From the NCBI RefSeq assembly GCF_023516455.1, contig NZ_JAMGBA010000002.1:334501-398500 (forward strand): a DNA stretch of 64,000 bases, in the 5' to 3' direction. The stretch is from Sphingomonas caseinilytica. Its GTDB lineage: Bacteria > Pseudomonadota > Alphaproteobacteria > Sphingomonadales > Sphingomonadaceae. The notes under the pieces are model-generated. The model worked only from the letters and a program-made list of their open reading frames with translations. It was not told where the DNA came from and made no database searches. Made by a program: the position numbers and the translations under genes. Within the stretch, counting starts at the first letter, position 1, and each line of letters opens with the position of its first letter. Shown here in pieces: positions 20,833 through 36,742 of this stretch.

Positions 20833-20968
20833 GACTCCCGTTGAGTCTCGGATATAAGCCTTCCAAACTGACTCTTCCATGACTCAATTCGATTCGAGCA
20901 ACGGCTGTGGCATGGAGTCCACAAGAGTGTCCCGAGGCGGGCCAAGATTCTCGCGCTTGCCGAGAATC
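20833..20968. promoter_or_regulatory. Cluster of eight GANTC methylation sites in a divergent promoter
   Basis: GANTC sites begin at 20833, 20843, 20870, 20881, 20891, 20915, 20946 and 20964, eight in 136 bases where about 0.5 are expected by chance. GATTCTCG (20946-20953) and CGAGAATC (20961-20968) also form an 8 bp inverted repeat. GANTC is the target of the alphaproteobacterial cell-cycle methylase CcrM, and GcrA reads methylated GANTC promoters. The interval serves an outer-membrane protein gene leftwards and DUF3576-leuS rightwards. Confidence 0.6.
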
Positions 20969-24474: not shown

Positions 24475-25490
24475 AGATCCCCAAGGGCGGCCTGGCGCAA
24501 GCGCTGGACCGGCCCGACCAGGACGTTCGCTTCTACCTGTTTCACGGTGCGGACGAGGCCGGATCGCGAGGCCTTGCGGAGCGGCTTTTGAAGGGACTCG
24601 GTGCGGAGAAGTCTCCGTTAACCGGCCAGGCCGTCAAAGCCGATCCCGCGATGCTTGCCGACGAGGCTGGCGCCATTTCTCTGTTCGGTGGAAAGCGGGC
24701 CATCTGGGTCGAGCCTGCCGGTGACGAAATTGCCGAGGGGGTGACGGCCCTGTTCGAGCTGCCCGCCTCGGAAAGCCCGGTGATTGCTGTCGCCGGTACG
24801 CTGCGGAAGACGTCCGCGCTGTTGAAGCTTGCCGAGGCCCATTCGGCCGCCCTCTCGCACATCGGCTATGTGCCCGAGGGGCGGGACCTGGAGCGGCTTG
24901 TGGTCGACCTTGGCCGGGATGTCGGGCTGCGGGTCACGCCGGAACTGGCGCAGCGTGTCGCATCTGCCTCGGGTGGGAATCAGGCGGTTGCGCTACAGGA
25001 ACTATCCAAGTTCGCCCTCTATCTCGGAGCGGAAAGAGAGAATCCCAAGGAGTTGGATCCGGAAACGGTAGACCTGCTTGGCGCCGATTGCGCGGAGGCC
25101 GACCTGATGCGGCTCGGCGATTTGGCGCTGTTGGGACGGATGAGGGAGTTGCTCGACGAGTTGGGGCGGCTTCCGCACGGAAGTTCGGAAGCCATTCCCG
25201 TGCTTCGGGCCCTGCAGCGGCGCTTGCTGATGCTGGCTCCGCTTCGCTCCCGGATCGAGCGCGGAGACAGCGTTGACGGTGTCATGACGTCAATGGGTAA
25301 GGCATTGTTCTGGAAGGATAAGCCGTTGATCCAGCGACTACTTTCGACCTGGTCGTCGGAGCGGCTTGCGGAGGCGGCATCCCGGGTTGCCCAGCTCGAG
25401 CGACAGATCATGCTCCGTCCGCTTGCGGACGACGCTGCACTGGGGGAAACGTTGGTGACCCTGGCGCGAGCGGCGGGCCGGGGGCGCTAG
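24471..25490 (+). CDS. holA: DNA polymerase III subunit delta
   Basis: The delta subunit opens the beta clamp within the clamp loader. The 339-residue protein starts [30 protein letters not shown], the usual HolA opening, and continues with an AAA+-like domain lacking a Walker A, an LKLAEAHSAALSHIGYVPE middle and a C-terminal helical collar domain (VLRALQRRLLMLAPLRSRIE). It is fused by overlap to lptE and converges with parB, sharing the last four bases (CTAG). Confidence 0.94.
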   Translation: MKIPKGGLAQALDRPDQDVRFYLFHGADEAGSRGLAERLLKGLGAEKSPLTGQAVKADPAMLADEAGAISLFGGKRAIWVEPAGDEIAEGVTALFELPASESPVIAVAGTLRKTSALLKLAEAHSAALSHIGYVPEGRDLERLVVDLGRDVGLRVTPELAQRVASASGGNQAVALQELSKFALYLGAERENPKELDPETVDLLGADCAEADLMRLGDLALLGRMRELLDELGRLPHGSSEAIPVLRALQRRLLMLAPLRSRIERGDSVDGVMTSMGKALFWKDKPLIQRLLSTWSSERLAEAASRVAQLERQIMLRPLADDAALGETLVTLARAAGRGR

Positions 25491-26368
25491 ATCTGTTCGC
25501 CGGAAAGCCGCTGGCAGATAAGGTCCAGCTGATCGAGCGTGCTGTAGTGAACGCTGACGTTGCCGCCACCCTTGCCATGGCTGACCTTGACCCGGAGACC
25601 GAGCAAATCGCCCAACTGGCGTTCCAGCGCCTCCAAATCTGCATCGACGGCACGGCGCGCCGTCCGTTCTGAAGCTCTTCCGATGTCATGGCCTGGCCCA
25701 GGCCGAACTTTTTTCGCCAGATGCTCAGCCTGACGGACCGACAGATCGCCCTCGACGATCTCGTTGGCGAGTTCCTCCGGATTCGGGGAGGTCAGGATAG
25801 CTCTTGCGTGCCCCATGCTGATATCGCCTCGCATGAGCATTAAGCGTACCGAATCGGGCAGATCGAGGAGCCGCAGCAAGTTGGCTACATGGCTGCGGGA
25901 TTTGCCCACCAGCTTGCCGACCACTTCCTGGCTATGGCCGTAGCGATCCATCAGTTGCCGAAAGGCTGTCGCTTCCTCAATGGCATTCAGGTCTTCGCGC
26001 TGAATATTCTCGATAATTGCAACTTCAGCGCTGGATTCTTCGTCAAAATCCCGAATAATTGCTGGAATTTCATGAAGTTGCGCCTTCTGCGCAGCGCGCC
26101 AGCGTCGCTCACCGGCAACCAGCTCGAAACCATCTTCCACTGCGCGCACAATGATGGGTTGAAGCACGCCGCGTTCAGCAATGGACGCTGCGAGCTCCTC
26201 GATCGGTCCTTCATCAAAAACTTGTCGAGGTTGTGAAGGATTGGGACGGATACGCGCGATCTCGATCGTTCTCACGCCGCCTCCGGCGACTGAATCCGAA
26301 CGGGGAACGGGCGGCGCTTCGCCGATCAGCGCGCTGAGACCCCTCCCCAGCCCCGTTGCCTTCTTCAT
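25487..26368 (-). CDS. parB: Chromosome-partitioning protein ParB
   Basis: ParB loads at parS sites and spreads as a CTP-dependent clamp to form the centromere complex. The 293-residue protein has the N-terminal ParA-stimulating peptide (GLGRGLSALIG), the CTPase core with RIRPNPSQPRQVF and the GERRWRAA motif, the HTH KLVGKSRSHVANLLRLLDLP that reads parS, and a C-terminal dimerisation domain. The start overlaps the parA stop by ATGA. Two parS-like sites are nearby, at 27711 and 29631. Confidence 0.97.
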   Translation of the reverse strand: MKKATGLGRGLSALIGEAPPVPRSDSVAGGGVRTIEIARIRPNPSQPRQVFDEGPIEELAASIAERGVLQPIIVRAVEDGFELVAGERRWRAAQKAQLHEIPAIIRDFDEESSAEVAIIENIQREDLNAIEEATAFRQLMDRYGHSQEVVGKLVGKSRSHVANLLRLLDLPDSVRLMLMRGDISMGHARAILTSPNPEELANEIVEGDLSVRQAEHLAKKVRPGPGHDIGRASERTARRAVDADLEALERQLGDLLGLRVKVSHGKGGGNVSVHYSTLDQLDLICQRLSGEQI

Positions 26369-27150
26369 GCAGCCTCCGCCGTCGGCTGCGGCAGCCGCGC
26401 CATGATTTCCCTGGCGAGGCGAACATAAGCCTCTGAGCCCGGGCATTTGAGATCGTAGATGAGCGCCGGCAGGCCGTGGCTCGGTGCCTCTGACAGGCGG
26501 ACGTTGCGAGGAACGACGGTTTCGAACACCGATGTGCCCAGGCAGGCGCGCACATCTTCGGCAACCTGCTGCGAAAGATTGTTGCGGCGATCGAACATGG
26601 TCAGTGCAACGCCAAGGATCGAAAGCTGCGGATTGTAGGCTAGCCGGATCCGCTCGACCGTCTGCAGCAACTGGCTCAGCCCCTCGAGGGCAAAGAATTC
26701 GCACTGCAGCGGCACCAGCAGCTGACGTGAAGCGACCAGCGCGTTAACCGTCAGCAAGCCGAGAGATGGCGGGCAATCGAGGAGGCAGATGTCCCAGCGT
26801 CCCACGGGAGTTTCATCGAATGCCTGGGCCAGGCGATGCGTCCGGTCTTCCATCCCGACCATTTCGACTTCTGCGCCGGAAAGGTCGACAGTGGCAGGCA
26901 GAATGTCGAGGCGCGGGACCTTGGTCGCGATAGCGGCTTGGGCAACGGTCGCTTCACCCATCAGCACGTCATAAGTGGACAGCTCGCGGGCAGCGCGGCC
27001 TACGCCGAGCCCCGTGGAAGCATTCCCTTGGGGATCCAGGTCGACGAGCAGGACGCGCCAGCCGATGGCCGCAAGGGCGGTCGCCAGGTTGATGGCAGTC
27101 GTGGTCTTGCCCACTCCGCCTTTTTGATTGGCGACTGCGACACGAATCAT
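26365..27150 (-). CDS. parA: Chromosome-partitioning ATPase ParA
   Basis: ParA is the Walker-type ATPase that moves ParB-parS complexes to the cell poles. The 261-residue protein has the deviant Walker A KGGVGKTT (residues 10-17), the DLDPQGNAS motif and CLLDCPPSLG around residue 125 with the catalytic Asp. It lacks the N-terminal DNA-binding extension of plasmid ParA proteins, so it is the short chromosomal type. It overlaps rsmG by four bases on one side and parB on the other. Confidence 0.97.
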   Translation of the reverse strand: MIRVAVANQKGGVGKTTTAINLATALAAIGWRVLLVDLDPQGNASTGLGVGRAARELSTYDVLMGEATVAQAAIATKVPRLDILPATVDLSGAEVEMVGMEDRTHRLAQAFDETPVGRWDICLLDCPPSLGLLTVNALVASRQLLVPLQCEFFALEGLSQLLQTVERIRLAYNPQLSILGVALTMFDRRNNLSQQVAEDVRACLGTSVFETVVPRNVRLSEAPSHGLPALIYDLKCPGSEAYVRLAREIMARLPQPTAEAA

Positions 27151-27788
27151 CGCTTCCCCCTCCGCTGGACATGATCGGCGACAACTATTGCCGATGCCGG
27201 GTGCGTCCGGCTCGGAACCAGACGAAAGCTACCCTGCCATGAGCCACGCGCTTCTACCAGTTCCGATTGCGCCTTTTCGCCTTTCGGAAGGACCCATTTC
27301 GTGTCGCTGTGGGCCAGATGACACGCCATGCCGAAAAGCTTGTCGAGCCGGGCGACAGCGCGAGCCGTGATGAAATCGAATTTCCCTTCCAGGCGCTCCA
27401 CCTTGCACTCCGCAATATTCACATAGTCGAGGCGCAATGCGGCGACCGCGCGGCGAAGGAAATCGGCCCTGAGCTTCCGCGGCTCATTCAGGGTCATCGG
27501 GCGGCCGCCGAGTATGGCAATGACTAGCCCGGGCAACCCTGGCCCGGAGCCAATGTCGCACCAACTCCCTTGCCCCTCGGCAAGCCCCAGAAGCTGGGCG
27601 CCATCGACGATGTGCCGGGTCCACAGTTCGGGGATGCTGGCCGCCGCTACTAGATTTTGGCTCTGATTTTCCTCGACGAGCATCGCAGCAAAGCTGTCGA
27701 GCTGCTCCAATGTTTCACGTGAAACACTTTCGCGACGCGGGTCGGGCAAGCATGACAGGACTGCGTCCCACCGTGACGCGTCGGTCAT
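27147..27788 (-). CDS. rsmG: 16S rRNA (guanine-527-N7) methyltransferase
   Basis: RsmG methylates G527 of 16S rRNA with SAM. The 213-residue protein has [18 protein letters not shown], the SAM-binding motif I, the [10 protein letters not shown] block before it, and [16 protein letters not shown] as a further conserved region. The genes mnmG-rsmG-parA-parB form a tightly overlapping leftward run typical of origin-proximal DNA. A perfect parS site lies in its coding sequence near the 5' end, where it encodes residues around SRETLEQ. Confidence 0.95.
27711..27726. promoter_or_regulatory. parS: Perfect parS centromere site
   Basis: TGTTTCACGTGAAACA is the 16 bp palindromic ParB-binding consensus with no mismatch. 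It is inside rsmG, near the 5' end, about 1.3 kb from parB and about 8.2 kb from the proposed oriC. ParB loading here would mark this region for segregation. Confidence 0.93.
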
Positions 27789-29630: not shown

Positions 29631-29646
29631 CGTTCCACGTGAAACA
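29631..29646. promoter_or_regulatory. Near-perfect parS site between mnmE and mnmG
   Basis: CGTTCCACGTGAAACA matches the parS consensus TGTTTCACGTGAAACA at 14 of 16 bases, with changes at positions 1 and 5. It sits in the 68-base gap between mnmG and mnmE. With the perfect copy at 27711 it would be a second ParB loading site. Confidence 0.8.
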
Positions 29647-34346: not shown

Positions 34347-34808
34347 CTAGAAGGGCTTAACGATCACGAAGACGACGATGAAGGCGGTGAGGATGCCCGG
34401 CAATTCGTTCATCAGCCGCAGCTTCTTGTCCTCGAGCTCGCGATGCCCGCCGGCCAGTTTCTTGCCATATGCGCCGATCCAGCCCTGATAACCGGTCAGG
34501 ATGACGACGAGCAGCAGTTTGGCCGTGAACCACAGCTGGCCAAAGACATTGAGATGTACCGCCAGCATCAAGCCGAGCACCCAGACGATCAGCATCGCCG
34601 GAGTCAGGATGATGGTCCGTGCCTTGTCCTCCCGCTCGATCCAGGCGCGGTCCTCGGCGGATCCGGGCGTCGTCGCCTGGTGGTGGATATAATAGCGCGG
34701 AACGATAAACAGTCCGGCGATCCAGAAGATGACGAAAGTGACGTGAGCCGCCTTCACCCACAGGTAGGCCGCGCCCAGAAATCCCTGATACTCTGACAGG
34801 AACGACAT
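34347..34808 (-). CDS. hemJ: HemJ-type protoporphyrinogen IX oxidase
   Basis: HemJ oxidises protoporphyrinogen IX to protoporphyrin in bacteria lacking HemG/HemY. The 153-residue protein has four membrane helices. The first block, WVKAAHVTFVIFWIAGLFIVP, contains the essential His of the family, and the PRYYIHHQ segment another; the loop EREDKARTIILTPAMLIVW and KLRLMNELPGILTAFIVVF complete the pattern. It overlaps the hemE stop (TGATG), and pairing with hemE supports the haem role. The CopD-family name for this fold is the only alternative. Confidence 0.88.
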   Translation of the reverse strand: MSFLSEYQGFLGAAYLWVKAAHVTFVIFWIAGLFIVPRYYIHHQATTPGSAEDRAWIEREDKARTIILTPAMLIVWVLGLMLAVHLNVFGQLWFTAKLLLVVILTGYQGWIGAYGKKLAGGHRELEDKKLRLMNELPGILTAFIVVFVIVKPF

Positions 34809-35857
34809 CAATCCCCCTGGCGCTTCACCAGCGCAACCAGCTGTTCGACATTGGCGATTGGGGTGGTCTGCTGGATCCCATGGCCCAGGTTGAAGATGTG
34901 GGGCCGGTCGGCAAATGCGTCAAGGATTCGACGCGTCGCCGAGTTTAGTGCCTCGCCACCCGCGATCAACGCCAGTGGATCGAGATTGCCCTGCACAGGC
35001 AGGCCAGCCGGAAGTTCCCTCGCCGCCCAGGCGGGATCGACCGTCTCATCGATTCCGACCGCATCCACGCCAGTTTCATCGGCATAGGCGCGAAGTTTAC
35101 CGCCGGCGCCCTTTGGAAAGCCGATGATCGGCGTTTCCGGATGGCGGCGCCTCAGTTCGCTGACGATCCAGGCCGTGCGGCGGATGACCAGATTCTCGAA
35201 CTGCGCCGGTGACAGGCTTCCGGACCAGCTGTCGAACAGCTGGACAGCGTCGACGCCGGCTTCGATCTGGCCCGACAGATAGTCGACCGTGATCCGCGAC
35301 ACGATGTCGAGAATGGAATCCATCTTGGCGGGATCGAGATAGGCAAGCTGGCGGGCCTCGGCCTGTTCGCGGCTGCCCTGCCCGGCAATCATGTAGGTGG
35401 CGACCGTCCATGGCGACCCGGCAAAGCCCAGGAAAGTCGTCTGGGGCGACAACTCAGCCTTAACCCGCCTCACCGTTTCATAAATGGGATCGAGGCGCTC
35501 CAGGGCCGGTTCAAGGTCGTCCAGGCGTGCATCGCATAGCGGTGGAGCAAGCCTTGGACCTTCACCCACGACGAAGGTCAGATCCATGCCCATCGCGTGC
35601 GGGACGACGAGAATGTCGGAAAAGAGGATGGCGCCATCGAACGGAAACCGCCGGAGCGGTTGCAGCGTGATCTCCGCCGCGGTCTCCGGATCATAGGCCA
35701 TGTCGAGGAATCCGCCCTTCTTCGCCCGGAGTTCGCGATACTCGGGCAAATAGCGGCCGGCCTGACGCATCAGCCACATGGGCGGGGGATCGCGACGCTC
35801 ACCGCGAAGCACGGCTAGCAAAGGCTTGTCGACGGATACGGGAACGGGCGAGGCCAC
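34808..35857 (-). CDS. hemE: Uroporphyrinogen decarboxylase
   Basis: HemE removes four carboxylates from uroporphyrinogen III to give coproporphyrinogen III. The 349-residue TIM-barrel protein opens with LLAVLRGERRDPPPMWLMRQAGRYLPEYRE, holding the substrate-binding Arg pair, then PFDGAILFSDILVVPHAMGMDLTF with the catalytic Asp, and ends NLGHGIQQTTPIANV with the conserved His. The start is GTG at 35857 with AAGGGAGAATAGAGG upstream. It faces oriC; the presence of hemE next to the replication origin is a known alphaproteobacterial arrangement, best described in Caulobacter. Confidence 0.97.
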   Translation of the reverse strand: MASPVPVSVDKPLLAVLRGERRDPPPMWLMRQAGRYLPEYRELRAKKGGFLDMAYDPETAAEITLQPLRRFPFDGAILFSDILVVPHAMGMDLTFVVGEGPRLAPPLCDARLDDLEPALERLDPIYETVRRVKAELSPQTTFLGFAGSPWTVATYMIAGQGSREQAEARQLAYLDPAKMDSILDIVSRITVDYLSGQIEAGVDAVQLFDSWSGSLSPAQFENLVIRRTAWIVSELRRRHPETPIIGFPKGAGGKLRAYADETGVDAVGIDETVDPAWAARELPAGLPVQGNLDPLALIAGGEALNSATRRILDAFADRPHIFNLGHGIQQTTPIANVEQLVALVKRQGD

Positions 35858-36019
35858 CCTCTATTCTCCCTTATATATAAGATAAGTAGATTGATGATGA
35901 TGATGGGGCGTTGGCAGCGGGATTTAAGGGAGCCTCCCAGCTTTGCCAACAGGTCGCGATTCGGCGCGAATCGTGGGCTTTTGGCGAGTCGCCCCCAGTC
36001 ACTCCCATGATTCACAGTC

Positions 36020-36028
36020 TGTGGATGA
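36020..36028 (-). promoter_or_regulatory. DnaA box (one mismatch)
   Basis: On the minus strand the sequence is TCATCCACA, one base from TTATCCACA. A weaker copy, CCATCCACA, is at 36040-36048 (two mismatches). Both lie among the GANTC sites. Confidence 0.65.
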
Positions 36029-36131
36029 TGATTTTCCCCTGTGGATGGAGTCCTGAATCCGCCGACAGGGCAAAATGGCGAATCCCGGCCATTGGGTCAT
36101 CCCCGACTTCGCGCTAGGAGATCAGGGAGAC

Positions 36132-36140
36132 TTTTCCACA
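36132..36140 (+). promoter_or_regulatory. DnaA box (one mismatch)
   Basis: TTTTCCACA on the plus strand differs from TTATCCACA at one base. It stands 21 bases before the maf start codon, so it closes the origin region on the right. Confidence 0.65.
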
Positions 36141-36160
36141 GACTTCTCCACCGGAGCGCT

Positions 36161-36742
36161 ATGTCGTTGATATTGGCCAGCAACAGCCAAATTCGAAGGG
36201 CGATGCTTGAGCAGGCGGGTCTCGAGTTCGAGGTCCGCTCGCCTGAATTTGATGAGGAGGAGGTTAAGCGTGCCTTCGAAGGCGACAGCGAAATCCTTGC
36301 CCGGACATTGGCGGCGGGCAAGGCCGCGTCGCTCGCGGCGAATTCCGGCGATTGGGTCATCGGAAGCGACAGCACGGTGACGGTTGACGGCGTTCGCTAT
36401 TCCAAACCAGGCGATCGGGATGAGGCCGCTACCCATCTTCGTTCCTTTTCAGGGCGCACAATGCTGCTTTCCAGCGCCGTTGCACTGGCCAGGAAGGGCA
36501 ATGTGGAATGGGTTCATACCGAAACGGCGAAGCTGCACTGGCGATCGCTGAGCGAGCAGTTCATCAATGCCTATCTGGACCAGGAATGGCCGGAGGTCAG
36601 CTATTGCGTGGGCGTATTCCGGATGGAGGGACGCGGTGTGACTTTGTTCGATCGTGTCGAGGGTAGCCACTTCACAATCCTTGGAATGCCGCTCCTTCCA
36701 CTTCTTGGAGCCCTGCGCGATCGCGGGCAGATGCCGTCATGA
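36161..36742 (+). CDS. maf: Maf-family nucleotide pyrophosphatase
   Basis: Maf proteins hydrolyse non-canonical nucleoside triphosphates and can slow septum formation. The 193-residue protein has the conserved opening LILASNSQIRRAMLEQAGLEFEVRSPEFDEE, DWVIGSDSTVTVDG (the catalytic aspartate block) and YCVGVFRMEG. I chose the ATG at 36161, with CCGGAG upstream, because the reading frame before it lies in the origin region. It starts the rightward origin-proximal operon maf-aroE-coaE-dnaQ, with 4-base overlaps. Caulobacter and Rickettsia also have hemE next to an oriC-bordering gene. Confidence 0.92.
   Translation: MSLILASNSQIRRAMLEQAGLEFEVRSPEFDEEEVKRAFEGDSEILARTLAAGKAASLAANSGDWVIGSDSTVTVDGVRYSKPGDRDEAATHLRSFSGRTMLLSSAVALARKGNVEWVHTETAKLHWRSLSEQFINAYLDQEWPEVSYCVGVFRMEGRGVTLFDRVEGSHFTILGMPLLPLLGALRDRGQMPS

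Follow-up and report, generated by a model that had tools for sequence, protein, structure and literature searches.

The chromosomal replication origins described closest to the locus analysed here lie beside the gene hemE. In Sphingopyxis granuli TFA the predicted oriC is at hemE, the same has been predicted for most Sphingomonadaceae in DoriC, and these origins are described as having conserved DnaA boxes and an unwinding element (PMC4741004). A similar hemE-side origin has been described for Novosphingobium PP1Y (PMC4059872). In Sphingomonadales the proximity of dnaA to the origin is not conserved, and the same report describes ctrA as dispensable in Sphingomonas melonis (PMC8116508). In Caulobacter, the origin is reported to contain GANTC motifs, and the methyltransferase gene ccrM is most probably itself under the influence of methylation (PMC3973325), while CcrM is, according to a review, not required for initiation (PMC6090056). 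Similarly, ori1 of Agrobacterium is reported to respond little to CcrM depletion or excess (PMC11514494).

The stretch of DNA that we analysed (64,000 nucleotides, C2:334501-398500, henceforth the window) comes from a genome of 2,778,408 bases in six contigs. Positions without a contig name are those of the window; motif clusters were counted in 1.2 Mb of the genome and contig C2 was scanned over 940 kb. Between the divergent genes hemE and maf there is an intergenic gap (C2:370.4-370.7 kb), which a first-pass annotation of the sequence had proposed to be the replication origin. We consider it very probable that this gap is indeed the chromosomal oriC, on the strength of a strand switch of octamers, the GC skew of a relative, conservation across the genus and the published hemE origins (PMC4741004). 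The frame of the locus is the following.

34808..35857, minus strand: hemE (PF01208)
35858..36160, no strand: candidate oriC, the gap between hemE (minus) and maf (plus), from position, octamer switch and conservation
36161..36742, plus strand: maf (PF02545)
25487..27150, minus strand: parB and parA, overlapping frames from profile matches, the start of parB being provisional
27711..27726, no strand: parS, a perfect match to what we take to be the consensus
29631..29646, no strand: parS-like site, two mismatches to the same presumed consensus

To the left of the gap the minus strand carries, over ~10.4 kb down to 25487, hemE, a ydjM-like gene, rho, two terC-family frames, mnmE, mnmG, rsmG, parA and parB. 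To the right, over ~6.1 kb up to 42225, the plus strand carries maf, aroE, coaE, a dnaQ-like gene, genes for an S30AE-type factor, EIIA, a thioesterase, DUF1491 and a cell-wall hydrolase, and an mmcB-like gene. These lengths agree with the divergence of about 10 kb and 6 kb first noted, and the maf-aroE-coaE-dnaQ and parABS neighbours invoked at that stage are present in the order of known origins. As in hemE-type origins, the gap is an intergenic region bounded by hemE inside a conserved gene cluster, with the PF01208 and PF02545 genes on its flanks.

A hemE-type origin is also expected to coincide with a switch in strand composition. For this we used GGGNAGGG, which we take to be a KOPS-like octamer, both in name and in motif. 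With the arms split at the gap there are 71 copies on the leading and 20 on the lagging strand, and GGGCAGGG ranks first among the 8615 octamers scored in this manner, a count and a ranking that both presuppose the gap as the arm boundary. A free scan of the 138 octamer sites in 940 kb of C2 placed the switch at 378.1-378.9 kb, with a support interval (1.92 log units) of C2:364-385 kb that includes the gap (370.4 kb). The gap is one site short of the optimum, which falls 8 kb further right. The opposite switch, from plus to minus, falls at C1:322.5-334.4 kb (322518-334399, among the first 100 places listed), and this is the probable terminus region. Joining the end of C1 to the start of C2 and placing the four small contigs on the other arm, a contig order that we infer, gives arms of ~1.38 and 1.40 Mb.

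GC skew gave a different picture in the genome itself. Its cumulative curve (47 stretches, 940 kb) is weak and noisy, and its minimum, near C2:220 kb, is 150 kb away from the gap. The first-pass annotation had named a skew minimum elsewhere as grounds for abandoning its proposal, and on this check the minimum is indeed near 220 kb and not 370 kb. We count this against the origin reading, together with the 8 kb by which the octamer optimum misses the gap. Given that the skew of the own genome is weak and noisy, more weight was given to the octamers and to a congener assembled in one contig (G025, HemE 87% identical). There all 9 stretches sampled between 220 kb and 1.12 Mb have negative skew and all 11 of the remaining ones have positive skew; hemE, at 1.194 Mb, is in the unsampled interval in which the sign changes. 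Octamers near hemE were too few per stretch to place a switch in this relative. The switch in strand composition is therefore seen with the octamers (364-385 kb) and with the G025 skew, and not with the own-genome GC skew. This places the origin of the genome by sequence evidence that is independent of gene order.

We searched 37 genomes of the genus (the own genome included) and obtained loci from 30. One of them (L111) was excluded as a contig end truncates its locus, which left 29 usable loci, the own one and 28 others; L004 duplicates L108, the locus of a congener, in the gap. The gap is conserved in all 29. In 19 genomes that were paired by hand, 54 columns at least 90% conserved were found in the gap, compared with 21 in the 300 bp that precede the DUF3576 gene. 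Two records (L041 and L047) are titled Bacillus sp. and Microvirga sp., yet their hemE and origin are sphingomonad-like and the titles are probably wrong. The elements within the gap are listed below.

35871..35893, no strand: AT-rich stretch including TTATATATAA (35871-35880), from the sequence, AT-rich at the same place in aligned relatives
35893..35906, plus strand: GATGATGATGATGG, a three-base repeat loosely resembling DnaA-trios, where the genus strand is almost without C
35909..35917, minus strand: CGTTGGCAG, degenerate, at the alignment position of DnaA boxes in other Sphingomonadales (TGTGGATAC, for example)
35924..35932, plus strand: TTAAGGGAG, degenerate, aligned with TTATTCACA or TTATGCACA of L010, L013 and L020
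35943..35951, plus strand: TTGCCAACA, an invariant element (29 of 29 usable genus loci)
35958..36084, no strand: seven GANTC (CcrM) sites, from a motif count, at 35958, 35968, 35986, 36009, 36048, 36055 and 36080
36008..36016, plus strand: weak DnaA box TGATTCACA, which shares bases with the GANTC at 36009 and corresponds to exact boxes in aligned relatives
36020..36028, minus strand: DnaA box TCATCCACA, one mismatch
36040..36048, minus strand: DnaA-like box CCATCCACA (given also as TGTGGATGG), two mismatches
36092..36117, plus strand: conserved pair TTGGGTCATCCC and GCGCTAG, from the alignment, GCGCTA being among the longest conserved runs
36132..36140, plus strand: DnaA box TTTTCCACA, one mismatch and conserved better than any other box

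The DnaA-box-like sites at 36020 and 36132 had been singled out from the outset, with a weaker one at 36040, and all three were recovered with one, one and two mismatches, respectively. Boxes with at most one mismatch number five in the 64-kb window for 4.1 expected, so there is no window-wide excess. The pair at 36020 and 36132 is, though, the only one less than 200 bp apart among the 61 such boxes of 1.2 Mb. No exact consensus box was found in the gap; the three in 1.2 Mb are all single and all elsewhere, and this too we count against the origin reading. The box cluster expected of a hemE-type origin consists here of two one-mismatch boxes and weaker ones, none of them exact. On the maf side, a box with at most one mismatch is found at the place of 36132 in 28 of the 29 usable genus loci (L099 being the one without it), and the column aligned to the 36040 box reads largely GTGGA across the genus. 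Exact boxes align with the 36008 site in relatives such as L010 and L017, and boxes matching the 35909 position are found in L036, L043, L051 and L059. By these alignments, seen among the aligned loci listed, the sites at 35909 and 35924 appear to be decayed counterparts of DnaA boxes in other Sphingomonadales.

An AT-rich palindrome reported at 35870 corresponds to TTATATATAA, located at 35871-35880. The whole AT-rich stretch (35871-35893), found at the same place among the aligned loci listed, is a probable DNA unwinding element, and at the level of sequence it provides the AT-rich region that hemE-type origins have. The three-base repeat at 35893-35906 resembles DnaA-trios loosely. The letters of GATGATGATGATGG differ from the published 3'-GAT-5' trio consensus (PMC8287927), and the three-base periodicity of G in the genus alignment is weak, being equalled by 58 of 2000 column permutations. 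An inverted repeat (TTGGCA...TGCCAA, ~35911-35950) is found in the own genome and close relatives; its left arm is lost in the wider alignment and we make no claim for it.

The claim of seven GANTC sites between 35958 and 36084, where about 0.5 would be expected, held on recounting. The span is 127 bp, for which the window rate (173 sites per 64 kb) predicts ~0.34 sites and dinucleotide shuffles (350 sites in the window) ~0.7. In 2000 uniform placements of the 173 sites, the densest 127-bp stretch reached seven only once. Across the 29 usable genus loci the gap has a mean of 5.2 GANTC per 300 bp, with extremes of 2 and 9, and the whole loci, gap included, have a mean of 0.9. The values are 4.1 and 0.8 in the 59 of 80 named loci that were chosen as sphingomonad-like by rank and title, two of which are titled as other genera. 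The sites at 35986 and 36009 occupy conserved columns of the genus alignment. Among congeners the number of GANTC in the gap is kept and their positions shift. Around the site at 35986 there is an extended palindrome, GGCGAGTCGCC (35984-35994), and CGANTCG is widely kept there in the genus alignment.

Clusters of at least seven GANTC in 150 bp are found at three places in 1.2 Mb: the gap, the DUF3576/leuS promoter and the region upstream of ccrM. The second of these, overlooked in the first-pass annotation, is denser than the gap, with eight GANTC in 136 bp (20833-20968). It is located in a divergent promoter region, with a porin-like gene of the minus strand on one side and the operon DUF3576 lipoprotein-leuS-lptE on the other. 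In 24 genus loci, 2 to 8 GANTC (mean ~4.0) are present in the 300 bp preceding DUF3576, counted from the match start and not from the start codon. Such a density could mark this cluster as the origin itself, just as the usual arrangement in many other bacteria, with the origin beside dnaA, could point to the surroundings of that gene. We regard either location as extremely improbable. The DUF3576/leuS cluster has no DnaA box closer than two mismatches to the consensus, its upstream region is the less conserved one (21 versus 54 columns) and its position (C2:355.4 kb) is outside the 364-385 kb octamer interval, 3.3 log units worse than the gap. As for dnaA, it is on another contig than the gap (C1:673290-673769), in all 14 one-contig genomes of the genus it is separated from hemE by 0.68-1.28 Mb (lengths rounded), and in G025 (370 kb) it sits within one skew arm. 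This common zero point of coordinates is hence ~1 Mb from the origin in the genus. One deposited sequence (G024) starts at dnaA, and its coordinate 1 is accordingly not the origin.

The third cluster, seven GANTC at C1:167008-167156 (L195), is upstream of the gene for a CcrM-type methyltransferase. At least five GANTC are present within 450 bp of the catalytic motif codon in 27 of 30 genus loci, often at approximately -343, -334, -314, -294, -264, -206 and -195. Two of the 30 loci are cut by contig ends and one has no frame; in the alignment, which comprises 22 of the remaining 27, runs of TTGAGTC and GACTCAA are conserved. The CGANTCG flanks in the gap differ from these TTGAGTC flanks of the ccrM promoter. 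The conserved array suggests that ccrM may be regulated by its own methylation, and from the Caulobacter precedent the presence of GANTC at both the origin and the methyltransferase gene is known in kind (PMC3973325).

With two promoters equally dense, we rejected GANTC density as a sufficient marker of an origin, and these promoters count against the origin reading as well. They also invite the idea that the cluster in the gap marks nothing more than a divergent, methylation-sensitive promoter serving hemE and maf, the origin being elsewhere nearby. This fits with the promoter-like conserved pair that precedes maf (TTGGGTCATCCC and GCGCTAG, possibly the promoter of the maf operon). Nonetheless, DnaA boxes and the AT-rich stretch are conserved in the genus together with the GANTC cluster, the octamer switch and the G025 skew turn fall at the gap, and hemE-side origins have been published for the family (PMC4741004). 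A gap that is a promoter and nothing else is consequently very unlikely in our judgement; promoter and origin are in any case compatible with each other.

A distinct matter is what the GANTC sites do in a gap that is oriC. The genome encodes DnaA, a CcrM-type (RAMA) methyltransferase and GcrA, so that a CcrM-type gene and dense GANTC, the combination proper to a CcrM-methylated origin, are found together, and CcrM or GcrA would presumably act at the gap. That the sites are without any role in replication, their density reflecting selection for promoter regulation or the tolerance of non-coding DNA, is a possibility that we take seriously without preferring it. Intergenic DNA of alphaproteobacteria is enriched in GANTC (PMC8067484, PMC8116508), and the shifting positions at constant number point the same way. 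The published data from Caulobacter and Agrobacterium argue against a strict need for methylation at DnaA-dependent origins (PMC6090056, PMC11514494). On the other hand, no usable genus locus is without the enrichment (2 to 9 per 300 bp), and with three clusters of this density in 1.2 Mb, tolerance of non-coding DNA alone is insufficient.

The gap also contains the invariant element TTGCCAACA, probably a protein-binding site. Among the 80 named loci it is exact in 21 and appears as ATGCCAACA in 9 more, in sphingomonad-type loci; in the same set it is absent as such from Erythrobacter-titled loci, and absent at the usual place from Hyphomicrobiales-type loci. Its nine letters occur 14 times in 1.2 Mb of the own genome and are therefore not origin-specific alone, whereas TTTGCCAACAG occurs there a single time, in the gap. 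A literature search with the letters of TTGCCAACA and 'oric' returned no bacterial origin among the matches listed. With this element, a compact list of conserved origin elements is now available.

We scanned too for CtrA and IHF sites, using TTAA-N7-TTAA for the former and an IHF consensus, both of which we take to be the accepted motifs. Allowing up to one mismatch, we found no CtrA motif in the gap and a match in one of the 29 genus loci (L097); the exact IHF consensus had no match in the 29 loci, a scan that degenerate sites could escape. Neither the several CtrA sites nor the IHF site of a Caulobacter-type Cori were thus detected in the gap, which fits the dispensability of ctrA in Sphingomonas melonis (PMC8116508).

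From these elements and the standard model (DnaA binding, AT-rich opening and bidirectional replication) we infer how the gap may work; the proteins bound, the place of opening and any influence of methylation are all part of this proposal. DnaA-ATP would bind the strongest remaining boxes (36132 and 36020) and cooperatively occupy the weaker ones, namely those at 36008 and 36040 and, around 35909 and 35924, the degenerate ones. The DnaA filament would then extend towards hemE and open the AT-rich stretch at 35871-35893, where the helicase would be loaded, while a protein bound to TTGCCAACA would assist or restrain the initiation complex. Forks would leave leftward through hemE-rho-mnmEG-parAB and rightward through maf-aroE-coaE-dnaQ, to meet near C1:328 kb. 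As the GANTC sites are potential CcrM targets, and if CcrM is timed as in Caulobacter, the origin would become hemimethylated on firing and probably stay so until CcrM is synthesised late in the cycle. Rather than being a requirement for firing, this state may modulate re-initiation or the transcription of hemE and maf. It is conceivable, if rather unlikely, that the Sphingomonadaceae origin lacks control by CtrA of the Caulobacter type and is governed instead by a protein on the invariant (T/A)TGCCAACA and by GANTC hemimethylation, in a small circuit linking the three places densest in GANTC: the origin, the DNA upstream of ccrM and the promoter of DUF3576/leuS. The question raised is whether methylation gates a CcrM-dense origin that has no Caulobacter-type CtrA sites.

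How does this candidate origin compare with those already described? With the origins of Wolbachia and other Rickettsiales it shares the hemE boundary and the DnaA boxes, and GC skew is unreliable there as well; unlike the gap, those origins are partly defined by CtrA and IHF sites (PMC1914354). Cori of Caulobacter crescentus is, like the gap, beside hemE, as the first-pass annotation had stated, and both have an AT-rich region, DnaA boxes and several GANTC (PMC1914354, PMC3973325). Cori differs in having five CtrA sites, one IHF site and a COG1806 gene as boundary, against no such CtrA or IHF motif and a maf boundary here (PMC1914354); the remote dnaA sets the gap further apart from it. The resemblance to the predicted origins of Sphingopyxis granuli TFA and other Sphingomonadaceae is in the hemE side, gene order, several DnaA boxes and putative unwinding element, the boxes of the gap being weaker than those of the Sphingopyxis loci L015, L016 and L024. 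The portions of these descriptions available to us mention neither GANTC nor TTGCCAACA (PMC4741004, PMC4059872). Already published are, then, hemE-side origins in Sphingomonadaceae (PMC4741004) and GANTC in the origin of Caulobacter (PMC3973325). Less expected, as judged from the sequences compared, appear to be a gap without Caulobacter-type CtrA and IHF motifs, the invariant TTGCCAACA within it and the rigid GANTC array upstream of ccrM.
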